Origin: an uncultured bacterium
GTDB taxonomy: Bacteria; Cyanobacteriota; Vampirovibrionia; Gastranaerophilales; Gastranaerophilaceae
NCBI GenBank assembly: GCA_947365485.1
Contig: CANAXK010000006.1
Location: 1-20,193 of the forward strand
Length of the DNA: 20,193 bases
Direction: 5' to 3'
Shown: piece after piece, positions 521 through 10,276 of the stretch
How positions within the stretch are numbered: position 1 is the stretch's first letter
Layout: the number at the start of each line of letters is the position of its first letter
Position numbers and translations under genes: made by a program
The notes under the pieces: generated by a model
What the model saw: the letters and a program-made list of their open reading frames with translations, nothing else
The model's database searches: none
What the model was told of the DNA's origin: nothing

Positions 521-553
521 AGCGTGATTCCTCTCAAACTGCATGGGGGTTGT

Positions 554-599
554 CCCCTCACCCTAGCCCTCTCCCTAAGGAGAGGGAATACGGCGTTAC
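554..599. repeat. Intergenic palindromic repeat, copy R1
   Basis: It starts CCCCTCACCC, holds an 8-bp stem with a 4-nt loop (567-574 with 579-586) and ends ATACGGCGTTAC. The order of parts matches the copies at 3046, 8544 and 8983: a CCCTCAyCC end, a CTCTCCC/GGGAGAG-type hairpin, and an AyACGsCGyTTAC-like end. The TTA inside its end (596-598) is the stop codon of alr read on the minus strand. Confidence 0.6.
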
Positions 600-1717
600 C
601 TCACATAAACTCTTGGCAAACGCACTTTTAGTCTGCATGTAAGTTCGTAATTAATAGTATCTAATATTTTCGCCCAACTATCAAGCGTCAAAACCTCATC
701 ATCCAAAAGCGTTACCACATCGCCAACATTGGCTTCCACATCCGAAAGGTCAAACATCATTTGATCCATAGTAATATTGCCAACCTGACGAACTTTTTGA
801 CCGTTAATTTTACCATAAATCTTGTTAGAAAGACTTCTAGAAACCCCGTCAGCATAACCAATAGGGATGGTCGCAACCTTTGTTGGCTCGCAAGCAATAA
901 ACTTGTGACAATAGCTTACACCTTCTCCAGCTTTAACTTCATGAATATTGGTAATTCGACCTTTCAAACCCATAACTTGTTTAAGCTTAGGTCTATAATT
1001 ATATTTTGGCGGTAAATCCGGATAAAGCCCGTACAAAGAGATGCCGACCCGCACCATATTTGATTTAAAGTCGTACGAAAAAGTCGCAGCTGTGTTTTGA
1101 ATATGAATCAGAAGCCCTGCTGTATCAATATTTTCAATAACGCTATTCCATCTAGAAACTTGTTTCTCTGTCTCGTCCGGCTCTTCGGCTGCTGCAAGGT
1201 GGGTAAACACACCTTCAAATCGCAAGTACTCTGATTTTCTGACCTGTTCAATAAATTCAATCGCGTCTTCCGAGCGCACCCCAATCCTGTTCATGCCAGT
1301 ATCAATCTTTACGTGAACGATTGGTTTTATACCTGTTCTTTCGTAAACCTCGCGACAAACTTTCAGGTGCTCGTCATTAAATACTGAAAACGCAATATCG
1401 TTCTTTGCAGCGGATTCGATTGCCCAGAGTGGAATTGCGCCCACAACAAGAATCGGGCATTTGATTTTCACATTCCTCAAATCCAAGCCTTCGTCCACAG
1501 AAGACACGCCCAGCATATCGACTCCAGAGACGAGCATTGTCTGCGCAAGCATTGCAGCCCCGTGACCGTAGGCGTCAGCCTTAACGATTGCCATGAATTT
1601 CTTGTCTTTTGGAATCCCTTTTTTTATTTCGAGGATATTTTGCGCAAGAGATTCTAGATTAATCTCGACCCATGCGTCTTTGTGAATATTTACGTTTGAT
1701 TGTCTTACGTTTTTCAT
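596..1717 (-). CDS. alr: Alanine racemase
   Basis: This is a PLP enzyme that interconverts L- and D-alanine in the cytoplasm to supply D-Ala for peptidoglycan. The 373-aa length is normal. The PLP lysine is K46 in AIVKADAYGHG, and the second catalytic base is Y269 in GEGVSYCHKF from the partner subunit. Other family blocks are KIDTGMNRIG (137-146), MVRVGISLYG (221-230), IPIGYADG (284-291) and GNITMDQ (313-319). The typical C-terminus CRLKVRLPRVYV is present, so the gene is complete. The ATG overlaps the miaB stop as ATGA, with GGTGAG about 5 nt upstream, so translation is probably coupled to miaB. The stop codon falls inside repeat R1. Confidence 0.95.
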   Translation of the reverse strand: MKNVRQSNVNIHKDAWVEINLESLAQNILEIKKGIPKDKKFMAIVKADAYGHGAAMLAQTMLVSGVDMLGVSSVDEGLDLRNVKIKCPILVVGAIPLWAIESAAKNDIAFSVFNDEHLKVCREVYERTGIKPIVHVKIDTGMNRIGVRSEDAIEFIEQVRKSEYLRFEGVFTHLAAAEEPDETEKQVSRWNSVIENIDTAGLLIHIQNTAATFSYDFKSNMVRVGISLYGLYPDLPPKYNYRPKLKQVMGLKGRITNIHEVKAGEGVSYCHKFIACEPTKVATIPIGYADGVSRSLSNKIYGKINGQKVRQVGNITMDQMMFDLSDVEANVGDVVTLLDDEVLTLDSWAKILDTINYELTCRLKVRLPRVYVR

Positions 1718-3021: not shown

Positions 3022-3045
3022 TTTGTCCTCATATCCATTAAATCA

Positions 3046-3104
3046 CCCTCATCAGCCCTCCGGGCAGCTTCTCCCTTCAAGGGCGAAGCGTAAACGCGAT
3101 TTCT
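3046..3104. repeat. Intergenic palindromic repeat, copy R2
   Basis: It opens CCCTCATCAGCCCTCCGGGC, closely matching the outer part of the copy at 8989. Its second hairpin pairs 67-75 with 81-89 (numbers plus 3000), a 5-bp stem, one mismatch, then 3 bp around TTCAA. It ends GTAAACGCGATTTCTTA next to the gcvPB stop. It fills the gap between gcvPB and miaB, so any read-through transcript carries both hairpins. Confidence 0.6.
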
Positions 3105-3106
3105 TA

Positions 3107-4528
3107 TCAGCCCTTGTAGGTTAAATCCGGTTTTCTTGCAGCCAGTGTCTCGTCAACCTTCTTGATTGGCGTAGTTTGCGGAGATTTTAAAACCCCTTCC
3201 GGATTTTCTTCAATCTCACGCGCTATTTTTAGCATAATTTCTACAAAATTGTCCAGAACCTCTTTTGATTCAGACTCCGTCGGCTCAATCATCAAAGCTT
3301 CATGCACAATTAGCGGGAAGTAAACTGTTGGCGGATGACAATTTGAATCCATCAAACGCTTTGCAATCCCGAGCGTTGACACGCCCTGATGGTGCTGTTT
3401 TTCGCCAGACAGCACAAATTCGTGCATGCAAGGCTCATCATACGGCAAATCATAGGCGCCCTTGAGCTTTTCTTTCAAATAGTTCGCGTTCAAAACCGCA
3501 TCAGCGCTCGCAAGCTTAAGATTCTTGCCCATCATAAGGATGTAAGCATAAGCCCTTACAAGGATTCCGAAATTTCCGTAAAAACTTCTGACCTTGCCGA
3601 TTGAGTGTTTAATATCGTAATTTCTTACATACTTGCCATCAACACAATCAATAACAGGAGAAGGCAAATAATCCTTAAGCTTTTCTACAACCCCTACGGG
3701 GCCTGCACCCGGGCCGCCACCGCCGTGAGGTGTTGCAAATGTTTTGTGAAGGTTCAAATGCACAACATCAAACCCCATTAACGCAGGATTTGTCCAGCCC
3801 ATAACCGCATTGAAATTTGCGCCGTCGTAATAAAGCAAAGAGCCATTATCGTGCATCAATTTTGAAATCTCGAGAACTTTTTCCTCGAAAATCCCCAGAG
3901 TATTCGGGTTTGTCATCATAATTGCTGCAACTTTTTCATCCAGAAGCTCTTTCAAAGCTTCAACATCAACCTGACCTTTGTCGTTTGATTTGACTTCAAC
4001 AATCTCAAACCCGCACATCTTAGCACTTGCAGGGTTTGTACCGTGAGCAGAATCCGGAACAATAACCTTTGTTCTGTTTGTCTCACCCTTTACTTCAAAA
4101 TACTTTTTAATAACCATCATGCCGGTAAGCTCGCCATGCGCGCCCGCAGCCGGCTGCAAGGTTATTGCGTCCATACCTGTAATGTGTTTCAAGGCTTCCT
4201 GCAAATTGTACATAAGCTCCAATGCGCCTTGAGAATCCTCATCATCCTGGAGTGGGTGGAGGTTTGCAAACCCTTCAAGAGAGGCAAGGAACTCGTTAAC
4301 TTTCGGGTTGTATTTCATTGTACAGGAGCCAAGCGGATAGAAGCCTTTTTCAATACAGAAATTTCTGTCGCTTAGTTCTTTGTAGTGCCTCAAAACCTCA
4401 AGTTCGCCAAGCTGCGGAAGTCCAATTTCACCATCCCTCAACATTTCTGCCGGCAAGAAATCACCGAGTTTATAATCCCCTACTCCGATACCATCTGCCC
4501 CGTTACTTTTTTCAAATATTGTCTTCAT
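3107..4528 (-). CDS. gcvPB: Glycine dehydrogenase (decarboxylating) subunit 2
   Basis: This is the beta subunit of the two-subunit P-protein of the glycine cleavage system. It binds PLP, decarboxylates glycine and passes aminomethyl to lipoyl-GcvH. At 473 aa it has the normal length for GcvPB. The PLP lysine is K262 in HLNLHKTFATPHGGGGPGAG. Other family blocks are GFYPLGSCTMKYNPK (62-76), LQPAAGAHGELTG (124-136) and PDSAHGTNPASA (158-169). The partners gcvPA, gcvT and gcvH are not in the window. Its ATG lies inside the 3' end of the sigma-factor gene (17-bp overlap), implying coupled translation. TGA is followed directly by a second stop, TAA. Confidence 0.95.
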   Translation of the reverse strand: MKTIFEKSNGADGIGVGDYKLGDFLPAEMLRDGEIGLPQLGELEVLRHYKELSDRNFCIEKGFYPLGSCTMKYNPKVNEFLASLEGFANLHPLQDDEDSQGALELMYNLQEALKHITGMDAITLQPAAGAHGELTGMMVIKKYFEVKGETNRTKVIVPDSAHGTNPASAKMCGFEIVEVKSNDKGQVDVEALKELLDEKVAAIMMTNPNTLGIFEEKVLEISKLMHDNGSLLYYDGANFNAVMGWTNPALMGFDVVHLNLHKTFATPHGGGGPGAGPVGVVEKLKDYLPSPVIDCVDGKYVRNYDIKHSIGKVRSFYGNFGILVRAYAYILMMGKNLKLASADAVLNANYLKEKLKGAYDLPYDEPCMHEFVLSGEKQHHQGVSTLGIAKRLMDSNCHPPTVYFPLIVHEALMIEPTESESKEVLDNFVEIMLKIAREIEENPEGVLKSPQTTPIKKVDETLAARKPDLTYKG

Positions 4529-5747: not shown

Positions 5748-8264
5748 ATGCCATTAGATAACTTGGAACAAGAAAAAGATAATAAAGACAAAAAGAAAGT
5801 TTTTCTAACAATACACGGTCACTTTTACCAGCCGCCAAGAGAAAACCCATGGCTGGAAGCAATCGAGCAGCAGGACAGCGCTCTACCGTTCCACGACTGG
5901 AACGAGAGGATTAATGCAGAGTGCTACAACCCGAACTCTGTTTCCAAAATCGTGGATTCGAAAAACCAGATTCTCAACGTTGTAAACAACTACGAGTACA
6001 TCAGCTACAACTTTGGCCCGACTCTTCTTTCGTGGATGGAAGAGTTTGCGCCGATGGCTTACGAGCGCGTAATCAAAGCGGACATCAATTCCAGAAGAAT
6101 GCACTCCGGACACGGAAACGCGATTGCGCAGGTTTACAACCACATGATTATGCCGCTTGCAAACGAAAGAGACAAGCAAACACAGGTAAAATGGGGTGTA
6201 AAAGACTTTGAATACCGTTTTGGCAGAAAGCCGGAAGGTATCTGGCTTGCAGAAACAGCGGTCGATGATGACACGCTCCGTGTTCTCGTGGAAAACGGGA
6301 TAAAATTCACCATCCTTTCGCCTTATCAGGCTCAAAGAATCAGAAAAGAGGGTGAAAGCACATGGCAGGACGTAAGCTGGGGCAACATTGACCCTGCGCG
6401 TTCTTACAGGTATTACATAAAATCAGCACCGGGAAAATATATTGACCTATTCTTCTATGACGGCGCAATTTCGCGTTCTGTTGCATTTGACGAGCTGCTT
6501 ACAGACGGAAACAAGTTTGTAAACCGACTCAAAGACGGGGTTTCTGATGTCAGAAATTACAACCAGCTTGTAAACATTGCAACCGACGGAGAAAGCTACG
6601 GTCACCACACCAAATTCGGCGACATGGCGCTTGCTTATGCGCTCAAGCTCAAGGTCAAAGACGCAGGGTTTATTATCACGAACTACGCAGAATACCTTGA
6701 CAAGTACAGAAGCGACTGGGAGGTTGAAATCAAGCCGGTTTCATCATGGAGCTGTTTCCACGGTGTAGGCCGCTGGTGTGATGATTGCGGTTGTTCAACA
6801 GGCGGGCATCCGGGTTGGAATCAGAAATGGAGAAAGCCGCTTAGAAACGCGCTTGACTTTTTAAGAGACGAGATGATTTGTGTTTACAACAAGCATGCAA
6901 AAAAATACTTCAAGAATCCTCAGGATGCTCGTGACAACTACATCAGCGTTATTCTGGACAGAAGCGACATGAGTGTTAAGAGTTTTCAGGATGAGTACTT
7001 CCTTCCTGATTTGGATGACGAGCAAAAGGTAAAAGCAATGGAGCTTCTTGAAATCCAGAGGCAGGCAATGCTTATGTACACAAGTTGCGGCTGGTTCTTC
7101 TCTGAAATATCAGGAATCGAGACCGTTCAGATTATGAAATACGCTGCAAGGGTTATGCAGCTTGCAAAATCGTTCCTCAAGAAGGATTTGGAAACACCGT
7201 TTTTGGAAATCCTCAAGGAAGCAAAGAGCAACATTCCTGAGTTTGGCACCGGTAAAGATGTGTTTGAAAAGTTTGTAAAACCTTCTGTTATCACGCCAAA
7301 GCAGATAGTAAGTTTGTGGGCAATATCTTCGCTCTACGCTGACATTGAGGACGAAGAGAGCGTTTATTGTTACAAAATCAAAAAGCGTTCTTACAAGCGT
7401 GTGCAGAAGGGCAACTCACAGCTTGTAATCGGGCACATTGAGGTGGAATCAAAGGTTACGCTGGAAAAATCCAACATGATTTTTGCTCTGCTCCAGTTCT
7501 CAGGCGGTGATTTCCACTGTGCGATAAAAGAATACTCTGAAAACTTTAGTGACATACAAAAAGAGCTTATCCGCACTTATCTTGTATCGCCGCTCACAGA
7601 GATTATAAGGCACATTGACAATTACTTTGGCAAAGAGTACTTCACGCTCAAGGATATATTTATTGAGGAAAGGCGAAAGATTCTTCAAACAATGCTCAAG
7701 GGCAAGTTGCAAATCTTTGCCAACACTTATGAGTCAATGTACAACGAGGGCAAGGGTTCGATTTACCAGATGCAGACGCTCGGTTTGGAGATTCCGAAGG
7801 AGTTCAAGATTTCTGCCCAGTATGTTCTTACAAAGCAGTTCAACGATTTGTTTGTGGATTCGCGCGGGTTTTTGGATTCGGATATAACCCAGCAGGCTTC
7901 TGACATCAACTTTGAGGCGAAGAGAATCGGGATTGAGATAGACAAGACTCCGACTTCAAGGATTTTCAGCAAGAAGATTGCGCAAAACATCAACAGGCTT
8001 TCTTATGCGCTTGATATTCAGCAGGTTGAGGCGACTTTAGAGCTTCTTGACTGTATTTCGAAGCTGGAAATCAAGGTTGACATTGCAGAGGCGCAGAACT
8101 ATTATTTCTCAAAGATTGTGACGAACATTGAGGAATTGATTCAGCGAATAACCTGTCAGGCTGACAGAGACTTGCTTGTGATGTTGTTTGAAATCGGCGA
8201 GAATCTGAACATCAACATGGATTATTACAAGCAGATGTTCGACAGGGCGCTGGTTAGAGGTTAG
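5748..8264 (+). CDS. Glycoside hydrolase family 57 protein with DUF3536 domain
   Basis: This 838-aa protein has no signal peptide, so it is cytoplasmic. The N-terminal GH57 barrel shows region 1 LTIHGHFYQPPRENPW (H23, H25), region 3 EGIWLAETAVDDDTL (nucleophile candidate E169) and region 4 NIATDGESYGHHTKFGD (acid/base candidate D280). A cysteine-rich block follows (SCFHGVGRWCDDCGCS, near residue 337), typical of the DUF3536 subgroup. The remaining C-terminal half or so is the helical DUF3536 part. GH57 enzymes are retaining alpha-glucan hydrolases, transferases or branching enzymes; the substrate of the DUF3536 subgroup is, to my knowledge, unproven. GGAG lies 10 nt before the ATG, inside the end of the upstream gene. 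A strong terminator follows. Confidence 0.9.
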   Translation: MPLDNLEQEKDNKDKKKVFLTIHGHFYQPPRENPWLEAIEQQDSALPFHDWNERINAECYNPNSVSKIVDSKNQILNVVNNYEYISYNFGPTLLSWMEEFAPMAYERVIKADINSRRMHSGHGNAIAQVYNHMIMPLANERDKQTQVKWGVKDFEYRFGRKPEGIWLAETAVDDDTLRVLVENGIKFTILSPYQAQRIRKEGESTWQDVSWGNIDPARSYRYYIKSAPGKYIDLFFYDGAISRSVAFDELLTDGNKFVNRLKDGVSDVRNYNQLVNIATDGESYGHHTKFGDMALAYALKLKVKDAGFIITNYAEYLDKYRSDWEVEIKPVSSWSCFHGVGRWCDDCGCSTGGHPGWNQKWRKPLRNALDFLRDEMICVYNKHAKKYFKNPQDARDNYISVILDRSDMSVKSFQDEYFLPDLDDEQKVKAMELLEIQRQAMLMYTSCGWFFSEISGIETVQIMKYAARVMQLAKSFLKKDLETPFLEILKEAKSNIPEFGTGKDVFEKFVKPSVITPKQIVSLWAISSLYADIEDEESVYCYKIKKRSYKRVQKGNSQLVIGHIEVESKVTLEKSNMIFALLQFSGGDFHCAIKEYSENFSDIQKELIRTYLVSPLTEIIRHIDNYFGKEYFTLKDIFIEERRKILQTMLKGKLQIFANTYESMYNEGKGSIYQMQTLGLEIPKEFKISAQYVLTKQFNDLFVDSRGFLDSDITQQASDINFEAKRIGIEIDKTPTSRIFSKKIAQNINRLSYALDIQQVEATLELLDCISKLEIKVDIAEAQNYYFSKIVTNIEELIQRITCQADRDLLVMLFEIGENLNINMDYYKQMFDRALVRG

Positions 8265-8301: not shown

Positions 8302-8543
8302 ACAAAATGTTTGTTGAAAAGCTTCTTTAAGAGCATTACAAGCTCAATGAAGTCGCATGCTGCCATCATACTGCTTTCAGCCTGTGCGATGAACCAGCTG
8401 TTTCTTTCATCATAAGTTTTCTATCAAAAGGCATACAACTTAAACCCTTTACTGTACAGGTTTATCATATCTTTAAAAAATACTTATTTCTAATCTGACT
8501 TATAACCCTACAATGAATGTATAGAGCATTTTGTAGCAGATTT

Positions 8544-8610
8544 GTAAGCGCATATGTCCCTTCTCCCCTGTGTGGGAGAAGGTGGGCGGAGCTCGGATGA
8601 GGGGAGCAAT
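8544..8610. repeat. Inverted repeat copy R3, left border of the DUF559 cassette
   Basis: The core 8544-8604 matches the reverse complement of 8989-9049 at 56 of 61 positions by my alignment, and the match continues weakly to 8610. Inside, a 9-bp stem with a 6-nt loop pairs 8559-8567 with 8574-8582. The inner edge touches the stop codon of the DUF559 gene (8612-8614). Confidence 0.85.
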
Positions 8611-8611
8611 T

Positions 8612-8959
8612 TTACTCCCTAGAAATCAATTCTCTATACAAAAACTCCAAAACAATTTCCAGATGATTCAGAACATCTGTATTATAAAACCTAATAACCC
8701 GGAACCCAATATCCTCCAAATACTCGGTTCTGATTTTGTCTCTGATAATTCCGTCTTCCTCTAGATGCTCTCTGCCGTCTAGCTCAATGATTACTTTCTT
8801 TTCAAAACAGGCAAAGTCTGCAATATATTTATTAAGCAGAACCTGACGGCGAAATTTAAGCCCGAAAAATCGGCGTTCACGTAGTATGTGCCACATGATT
8901 TGTTCTGGACGAGTTTGCTCTTTTCTAAGCGTTTTTGCAAATTTTTTGAGGTGTTCCAT
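8612..8959 (-). CDS. DUF559 endonuclease-like protein
   Basis: This 115-aa protein has the DUF559 fold (PF04480), related to Vsr-type and PD-(D/E)xK nucleases. The N-terminal helix is AKTLRKEQTRPEQIMWHILR, followed by F-F-G-L-K-F-R-R-Q. The core is YIADFACFEKKVIIELDG, with candidate metal ligands D48, E59 and D61, then REH and the strand GFRVIRFYNTDV. Function in this family is not established; many members are stand-alone genes with scattered distribution. There is no Shine-Dalgarno. TGC-TAAAAT ends 6 nt before the ATG, so the mRNA is probably leaderless. The whole gene lies between inverted repeats R3 and R4, which suggests it travels with them. Confidence 0.85.
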   Translation of the reverse strand: MEHLKKFAKTLRKEQTRPEQIMWHILRERRFFGLKFRRQVLLNKYIADFACFEKKVIIELDGREHLEEDGIIRDKIRTEYLEDIGFRVIRFYNTDVLNHLEIVLEFLYRELISRE

Positions 8960-8965
8960 GATTAA

Positions 8966-8974
8966 ATTTTAGCA
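8966..8974 (-). promoter_or_regulatory. Extended -10 element of the DUF559 gene
   Basis: On the minus strand TGC is followed by TAAAAT (8966-8971), then exactly 6 nt (8960-8965) to the ATG. No good -35 is visible at 17 nt, where the repeat begins. The spacing predicts a leaderless transcript. Confidence 0.4.
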
Positions 8975-8982
8975 TGAAAACG

Positions 8983-9049
8983 ATTGTTCCCCTCATCCGC
9001 CCTCCGGGCACCTTCTCCCACACAGGGGAGAAGGGACATACGCGCTTAC
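8983..9049. repeat. Inverted repeat copy R4, right border of the DUF559 cassette
   Basis: This is the mirror copy of R3, with the outer end CGCTTAC at 9049 immediately before the rarA stop codon (9050-9052). It carries the GCCC-TCC-GGGC mini-hairpin (9000-9010), also seen in R2, and the CTTCTCCC/GGGAGAAG stem shared with R3. R3 has lost the mini-hairpin through substitutions. Confidence 0.85.
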
Positions 9050-10276
9050 TTATAAGTATTTCACCCCTACAAGTTCATCCGGCATAAACTGCTGCTCCAC
9101 ATCCGGCGCAGCATGCGTATAAACATAGCCCTCACCAAACCCGCATTTCTTCGCATCCTTGTAATGCGCGTCCCTCAAATGCATCGGAGGCGGAAAATCC
9201 TTGCCGTGCTCGATATCCGAAAGCGCCTTATCAATCGCCATTATTACCTTGTTCGACTTAGGCGCGTTCGCAACATAAACAACCGCATTGGCAAGCGGAA
9301 TCCTGCCTTCCGGAAGCCCGATTATCTCAACCGCGCGGTAAGCGTTTACTGCGATATTCATCGCATTTGGGTCTGCAAGCCCCACATCTTCCGCCGCACA
9401 AACAATCAAACGCCTTGCAATGAATCTCGGGTCTTCGCCGGCCTCTATCATTTTTGCAAGGTAATAAATCGCGGCATTCGCGTCAGACCCGCGCAAGCTT
9501 TTCTGGAACGCGGAAGCGCAGTCATAGTGTTCCTGGGTCGAATATCTCGTATTCCTTTTCTGCGTAATACTTTCCAGAATATCGACGCTCAAAAGCCTTG
9601 TGTCCTTCGAAAAATTGCTTGCAAAGTAAGAATTTTCAACAAGGTTCAAAGCGCAGCGCGCGTCTCCACGGGCGTTATTAACAATAAACTTCGTCACCTC
9701 TTCGTCGTACTGAATCGGCTGGTAATTCTTCTCCAGATACTCAAACCCGCGATTAACAATCTTTTCCATGCTCACATCATTAATCGGATTCAACCTTATC
9801 ACCTGCACCCTTGAAAGCAGTGCGGGAACAACCTGAAATGAAGGATTCTCCGTCGTAGAGCCGATTAGAAACACGGTTCCGTTTTCCACATGCGGCAAAA
9901 GCGCGTCCTGCTGGGTTTTTGAATACCTGTGGATTTCATCGATAAACAAAATCGTTTTCTGTCCGCTTCTCAAAGCCTGTCTTGCCTGCTCAATCGTCTC
10001 TTTGATTTCCTTTATGCCGGAAGTCACAGCAGAGAGTTCAATAAACTGCGCATTAACCTTTGTTGCGATAAGTCTTGCGAGCGTTGTTTTCCCGCAGCCC
10101 GGAGTTCCCCACAGGATCAAAGAAAAAAGTCTCTGGGTTTTTAAAAGATTTAAAAGCGGCGAATTTGGCGCAACAACATTTGACTGGCCGAGAAAATCGT
10201 CAAGAGTTTTCGGGCGCAGAATCTCCGCAAGCGGAATTTGTTTGTTTGCTTCTTCCAGTTGTGTGAATAAATCCAT
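9050..10276 (-). CDS. rarA: Replication-associated recombination protein A (MgsA/RarA AAA+ ATPase)
   Basis: The 408-aa AAA+ ATPase belongs to the clamp-loader clade and acts at stalled or gapped replication forks (MgsA/RarA in bacteria, Mgs1/WRNIP1 in eukaryotes). The family signature RPKTLDDFLGQ (21-31) leads to Walker A GTPGCGKT (57-64), Walker B ILFIDEIHRYSKTQQD (from 109) and sensor-1 GSTTENPSF. The C-terminal tetramerisation/MgsA region has RRLIVCAAEDVGLADP and DIEHGKDFPPPMHLRDAHY. The length is normal and the gene complete. No Shine-Dalgarno precedes the ATG; TGC-TAGAAT ends 6 nt upstream, suggesting a leaderless mRNA. The stop codon abuts repeat R4. Confidence 0.95.
   Translation of the reverse strand: MDLFTQLEEANKQIPLAEILRPKTLDDFLGQSNVVAPNSPLLNLLKTQRLFSLILWGTPGCGKTTLARLIATKVNAQFIELSAVTSGIKEIKETIEQARQALRSGQKTILFIDEIHRYSKTQQDALLPHVENGTVFLIGSTTENPSFQVVPALLSRVQVIRLNPINDVSMEKIVNRGFEYLEKNYQPIQYDEEVTKFIVNNARGDARCALNLVENSYFASNFSKDTRLLSVDILESITQKRNTRYSTQEHYDCASAFQKSLRGSDANAAIYYLAKMIEAGEDPRFIARRLIVCAAEDVGLADPNAMNIAVNAYRAVEIIGLPEGRIPLANAVVYVANAPKSNKVIMAIDKALSDIEHGKDFPPPMHLRDAHYKDAKKCGFGEGYVYTHAAPDVEQQFMPDELVGVKYL

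Follow-up and report, generated by a model that had tools for sequence, protein, structure and literature searches.

A DUF559 nuclease gene between inverted palindromic repeats: a probable homing-type mobile unit with relatives in many phyla

The DUF559 unit in the window and its closest relatives

The window analysed here is a stretch of 20,193 nucleotides (nt) of contig CANAXK010000006.1, from an uncultured bacterium of the Gastranaerophilaceae (assembly GCA_947365485.1; here genome G000, 1.63 Mb in 227 contigs, 83.8% complete). It holds a small gene for a nuclease of the DUF559 family, enclosed by two inverted palindromic repeats. A reading made from the window's letters alone, before any database search (the sequence-only reading), had proposed that gene and repeats form a mobile unit with gene-less offspring elsewhere in the window. 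The features concerned are the following, with lengths of proteins in amino acids (aa) and model confidence as the predicted local distance difference test (pLDDT).

8544..8610, forward strand: left inverted repeat arm, a hairpin CCTTCTCCCCTGTGTGGGAGAAGG followed by a GGATGAGGGG tail; 61 of 67 positions equal the reverse complement of 8983..9049
8983..9049, reverse strand: right inverted repeat arm, its outer end directly past the rarA stop codon
8612..8959, reverse strand: DUF559 nuclease gene, 115 aa; PF04480 at 118 bits; E19 and ExDGxxH (E59, D61, H65) intact; model pLDDT 90, predicted fold of I-Bth0305I/Vsr
3046..3110, reverse strand: solo repeat R1, of the same type as the arms; tract 3023..3110 absent in genomes G046 and G011
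549..606, reverse strand: solo repeat R2, a near-exact copy of the repeat flanking DUF559 unit L009 on contig C10 (alignment score 43)
9050..10276, reverse strand: presumed rarA, the flanking gene used for empty-site comparison
5748..8264, forward strand: 838-aa open reading frame (ORF), the other flank of the unit; adjoins rarA without the unit in genomes G047 and G021

The two arms reach a local alignment score of 63; when the bases of the region were simply shuffled, 200 times over, the score never exceeded 19. The DUF559 ORF is the only gene enclosed by the arms. This bears out the claim of near-perfect inverted repeats around the DUF559 gene alone, with arms that are longer than the 56 of 61 matching positions first described. 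The stop codon of the gene does lie close beside the left arm, at a distance of 1 nt instead of the 2 nt claimed, and the right arm starts immediately past the stop codon of the gene that we take, with the sequence-only reading, to be rarA. Both arms start with GTAAGCGC, and GTAG is absent from both.

Clean empty sites, looked for as a check on the proposed mobility, were found both for the unit and for a solo repeat. In G047 and G021, rarA and the 838-aa ORF adjoin each other, a few tens of bases apart, and repeat and DUF559 gene are absent. The closest rarA, 99% identical and located in G046, has the unit at the same place but inverted: positions 8544-9046 of the window align in reverse at 95.6% identity and both flanks align forward at 93-94%. 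With the unit turned round between its own repeats, the arms possibly undergo recombination or flipping. G046 also lacks some 240 nt of the window (8302-8543), from the end of the region of the 838-aa ORF up to the left arm. As to the solo repeats, both of the gene-less relatives described for the window are present, and R1 is indeed kin to the arms; R2, on the other hand, resembles not the window pair but the repeat of L009, the sole further DUF559 gene found in G000. In G000, each solo repeat of the window is therefore matched by a cognate unit of its own. The R1 tract is missing in G046, with flanks that are 95-97.5% identical, and in G011 (flanks 73-84%), so that a clean empty site for a gene-less copy was seen in the one solo repeat examined.

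The 115-aa protein clearly belongs to DUF559, with 118 bits for PF04480 against a cut-off of 20.6; the Pfam scan gave in addition MTES_1575, below its own cut-off, and no Y1_Tnp. E19 and the residues of the ExDGxxH motif correspond to invariant DUF559 columns. The predicted structure has a fold that is nearest to those of another DUF559 protein, of the homing nuclease I-Bth0305I and of Vsr, and it shares the catalytic-domain fold of I-Bth0305I; going by this model, the window nuclease is of the PD-(D/E)XK fold and the EDxHD/Vsr type. In the sequence comparison with the PDB, matches other than 3hrl and 3r3p, all of them at E 0.076 and above, were judged weak or due to chance, and PvuRts1I (4oky, 4oq2) recurred at 0.015. 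The protein falls short of the Vsr family as represented by TIGR00632 (18.2 bits vs. a cut-off of 97.85), and the top match for DUF559 among the PADLOC defence models has an E value of only 0.011.

Recurrence of the repeats and their link to the nuclease

DUF559 is present in 41 of the 58 genomes of the window's genus, and its loci carry C-rich hairpin pairs that are inverted, differ between loci and are alike inside one locus. For a wider view, we took a sample of named genomes in which the best 80 DUF559 loci were kept, from many phyla (at least 80 such loci thus exist); L155 was left out because its flank is under 60, leaving 79. An inverted pair, defined as an alignment score of at least 20 in a search of 250 nt on each side of the gene, accompanies 55 of these 79 loci, compared with 1 of 244 other ORFs at the same loci (Fisher 1e-41), and with a strict hairpin on both sides the counts are 49/79 and 1/244. 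This check confirms that the same kind of ends recurs beside DUF559 genes. With a slightly wider search, a score of 20 was reached in 29 of 41 loci labelled as lying outside the window's group, with titles that include Planctomycetota, Nitrospira, Mesorhizobium, Dyella, Flavobacterium and a Legionella metagenome bin; the 41 include one locus, L148, that actually comes from the window's genus. L148 is titled uncultured Acinetobacter, apparently in error, as its repeat pair is that of L066, a locus from the window's genus.

The complete collection amounts to 185 distinct units, 30 of 215 domain places having been removed as duplicates. A pair at score 16 is found in 88 of the 112 stand-alone units and in 46 of the 73 units that sit in frame inside longer reading frames. 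The idea that the tail of the repeat invariably faces the gene was dropped after a count over all 185 units, which gave 32 tails towards and 17 away from the gene upstream, 34 and 23 downstream, and 17 units with tails towards the gene on both sides. A cruder count of palindromes yielded 98 outer vs. 72 inner.

The repeats vary in step with the nuclease. For 134 of the 185 units (51 were left out for lack of an inverted repeat score of 16 or because a flank was too short), protein identity correlates with repeat similarity across all pairs under 70% identity (rho 0.28; 0/300 permutations as high), and the correlation is seen within the genus (rho 0.27; 0/500) as well as between groups (rho 0.26; 0/300). 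The window-type repeat occurs in 6 of the 58 genus genomes, including the three with the nuclease nearest to that of the window on the tree (Fisher p 6.5e-4). These three are G000 itself, G046 (97% identical) and G034 (56% identical, the next best being 52%), with the tie of G034 to the window clade resting on path length, without a well-supported fork. A generic C-rich repeat pattern is present in 33/58 genomes, with a control pattern at 0 in every genome, and has a modest association with DUF559 (27 of 41 genomes with the gene vs. 6 of 17 without it; Fisher p 0.044; rho 0.39).

These data can be set against the explanation that the repeats are ordinary repetitive extragenic palindromes (REPs) moved by a Y1 transposase of the RAYT type (REP-associated tyrosine transposase), with DUF559 having merely landed among them. 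Y1_Tnp genes (PF01797, the RAYT family) are indeed present in 33/58 genus genomes, and G043 (99% complete) combines 25 generic repeats and two Y1 genes with no DUF559 match. However, the genomes that hold the window unit, G000 (83.8% complete) and G046 (99% complete), have no PF01797 match. Moreover, the four Y1 loci (L355-L358) that were readable upstream, out of five opened, carry a different hairpin, GGTTGGG..CCCAAC, headed by GTAG in two of the four, and the C-rich hairpin pattern is unmatched at all four. The lack of a Y1 match and the different hairpin led us to reject a RAYT as the mover of the window unit, for which the passenger explanation is already weakened; given in addition that the repeats covary with DUF559, we consider this explanation very improbable.

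DUF559 units inside housekeeping genes

A property of the family beyond those described in the sequence-only reading is that 73 of the 185 units sit in frames longer than 200 aa. A Pfam scan of 19 frames found domains other than DUF559 in 17, and the host domains include HydF, PrmA, Mur ligase (MurD), radical SAM, UvrD-type helicase, epimerase, MetH, GH31, class I tRNA synthetase and N6-methylase. Host domains flank DUF559 on both sides in 13 frames and on one side in L034, L069 and L078; DUF559 is the sole domain found in L182 and L155, and the domains of L184 were not placed. Further hosts, read from sequence context and named by their motifs, are presumably RecG, LeuRS, PriA and an M14-type peptidase, and some long frames (L169, L209, L215, L229, L239) are without a recognisable host. 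The repeats are translated together with the gene, for example as PPAPEGGA ... APPSGAGGA in Flavobacterium MetH. The MetH fusion L202 still scores above the cut-off of the metH model, and no intein or Hint domain was found in it (Pfam at E <= 0.001, NCBIfam at 0.01) or in the other 18 frames scanned (Pfam only). In-frame copies may be kept because no stop codon interrupts the frame through repeats and gene; the nuclease would then form an additional domain of the host protein. Two frames, L238 (MetH) and L274 (LeuRS-like), have two DUF559 domains each, at two sites of the host.

PrmA and MetH allow a comparison of filled and empty alleles, for which we took the best 30 loci of each plus the DUF559-bearing ones. 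In PrmA there is one insertion site, occupied in 6 genomes (one of them split between contigs), and 29 of the 35 aligned rows have no insertion; among these, L130 has an apparent single decayed hairpin and L131 an unexplained extra stretch. L127, missed by the pattern in this count, is included in the PrmA tree, from which L034 was left out because its PrmA N-terminus is on another contig. Of 30 MetH loci, 22 have a segment of 44-46 aa ahead of the B12 domain and 6 have one of 181-197 aa; L282 and L283, with longer MetH frames unmatched by the pattern, were left out of these lengths and of the MetH tree. DUF559 matches, some weak and partial, occur in 48 of 101 Flavobacterium genomes.

On the MetH host tree (13 filled and 22 empty rows), the insertion requires 9 changes, at least 6 of which are forced by well-supported branches, with a mean of 10.7-10.8 after shuffling. 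The PrmA host tree (5 filled and 30 empty rows) requires 5, of which at least 2 are forced (shuffled 4.8). The DUF559 tree, built from 114 columns and with weak support at 87 of 181 inner forks, groups the copies by host site, with 13 changes for 12 groups (minimum 11; shuffled mean 39.1; 0/200 as low). Same-site insertions scattered among relatives, with clean empty alleles, are thus seen in PrmA and MetH, and gain and loss fit them alike. Scatter on the host trees together with mostly site-specific DUF559 lineages is the pattern that homing predicts.

The same observations could be accommodated by RAYT-like transposition, in which DUF559 would act as a transposase on the hairpin ends, perhaps on single strands or cruciforms, and paste units and bare repeats at new places; insertion at one and the same site would then reflect target preference. 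Same-site insertions with mostly site-specific nuclease lineages fit homing better, however, and the structures closest to the predicted fold are a further DUF559 protein, a homing nuclease and Vsr. No target duplication was seen at R1 either, and transposition therefore appears rather unlikely to us. A role for the host cell is a further alternative: DUF559 could be a repair or defence nuclease of the Vsr type, maintained for the benefit of the cell, and lie in palindrome-rich regions by chance. The Vsr fold would suit such a role, as would the position of ycjD, the DUF559 gene of E. coli, next to sapF in most complete genomes, and the Caulobacter DUF559 protein VsrA is proposed as a short-patch repair enzyme in a passage of PMC12907096. 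Against this stand the in-frame copies, which have a scattered distribution among relatives and lie in enzymes that include MetH and PrmA, the locus-specific repeat pairs, and the low scores with the PADLOC and Vsr models given above, which make a host function improbable.

Interpretation and relation to known systems

Judging from the sequences compared, the unit is found again in many phyla, clean empty sites exist for it, it lies inverted in place in one relative, and its repeats covary with its nuclease. The proposal of a mobile unit of nuclease and ends with gene-less offspring is supported by the recurrence of the ends and by the clean empty sites, and we conclude that the window unit is probably a palindrome-bounded, selfish mobile element of the homing type. 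The DUF559 nuclease would recognise and cut its own repeat, the empty site or both, repair from a unit-carrying copy would then install the unit, and occasional ectopic events might place units or bare repeats elsewhere. More tentatively, DUF559 genes at large may drive a cross-phylum class of homing elements bounded by palindromes, which place a translated nuclease domain in housekeeping proteins without splicing, and the widespread C-rich hairpin repeats may be their gene-less remains.

Several observations weigh against an interpretation as homing elements. An inverted pair at score 20 is missing in 24 of the 79 DUF559 loci and one at score 16 in 27 of the 73 in-frame units, the orientation of the repeat tail varies among units, and ycjD and a gonococcal DUF559 copy have no neat inverted unit. 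The window-type repeat is also present in G045, G039 and G017, which have no nuclease near that of the window, and G043 has its many generic repeats without a DUF559 match. The scatter on the host trees could be due to repeated, precise loss, and for 12 MetH inserts the identities of host and insert are weakly correlated (rho 0.32, 66 pairs), so that part of the descent may be vertical. At R1, the only repeat inspected for it, no target-site duplication is obvious by eye. Finally, cleavage and movement by DUF559 are what we infer from sequence.

The passages of the literature that concern DUF559 genes put them in different contexts: a section on inteins in PMC9403480 calls one an EDxHD homing nuclease, PMC6712171 lists a Deinococcus gene, and PMC12907096 proposes Caulobacter VsrA as a repair nuclease. 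Flanking repeats are unmentioned in these passages. A link between DUF559 and repeats was not found among the matches listed in our search, which covered titles and the starts of abstracts and had most subscription papers and bioRxiv outside its reach; it may be in print. The closest parallel in layout is the RAYT/REP system (REPtron, REPIN), where a DNA-cutting enzyme is likewise encoded between two palindromic repeats in inverted orientation and gene-less copies occur genome-wide, and in Stenotrophomonas the trees of repeat and enzyme are alike according to a passage of PMC2817692. The RAYT analogy of the sequence-only reading therefore stands for the layout, and the homing pattern in host genes and the in-frame insertions go beyond it. 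RAYTs are HUH Y1 transposases, whereas the window enzyme is a predicted PD-(D/E)XK protein of DUF559; the window arms have no GTAG head; and DUF559 units also lie in frame inside genes and occur in many phyla. I-Bth0305I differs in that the DUF559 unit is bounded by palindromic repeats, with no intein domain around the frames scanned, and the 115-aa window protein is too short to accommodate the long DNA-binding region that part of PMC3943268 describes for I-Bth0305I. Vsr differs as well, the window protein being far below the cut-off of its model. Rickettsia palindromic elements are similar in being palindromes translated in frame inside unrelated genes, but the passages on them in PMC10969869 and PMC3733652 describe no enzyme, and a DUF559 insert holds a whole nuclease domain. 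The ShiLan insertion in a phage methylase is in frame, unspliced, homes and carries a nuclease, as described in the abstract of PMC11855218; that nuclease is an HNH enzyme in another reading frame, and the abstract does not mention bounding palindromes. Taken together, DUF559 units have the layout of a RAYT/REP unit with another enzyme and the host-gene spread of a homing element, and their in-frame life recalls the Rickettsia palindromic elements.

If this interpretation is correct, a large family whose very name marks its function as unknown, with ycjD of E. coli K-12 among its members, would be given a role, and the maker of a class of bacterial palindromic repeats would be named. It would also mean that enzymes such as methionine synthase can house a nuclease in frame and unspliced. 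The idea is open to direct tests in E. coli K-12 and Flavobacterium.

Two further DUF559 copies deserve mention. In Neisseria gonorrhoeae (L353), C-rich hairpin repeats flank the DUF559 gene, the two closest copies being direct and not inverted; the CGTC-tagged neisserial dRS3 repeats were dropped as its partner, the CGTC pattern being unmatched in the surrounding 3.3 kb. In E. coli, 3362 of 5426 complete genomes have ycjD matches that cover at least 80% of the query, and the gene order in L221 and L312 is sapF-ycjD-fabI. Three genomes that lack ycjD (L313-L315) were opened in search of an empty site, but efflux genes follow directly past sapF in all three, so that these genomes do not provide a clean one. 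In L221, three C-rich repeats lie downstream of ycjD, and a near-perfect palindrome of another kind extends to the start codon of the gene.
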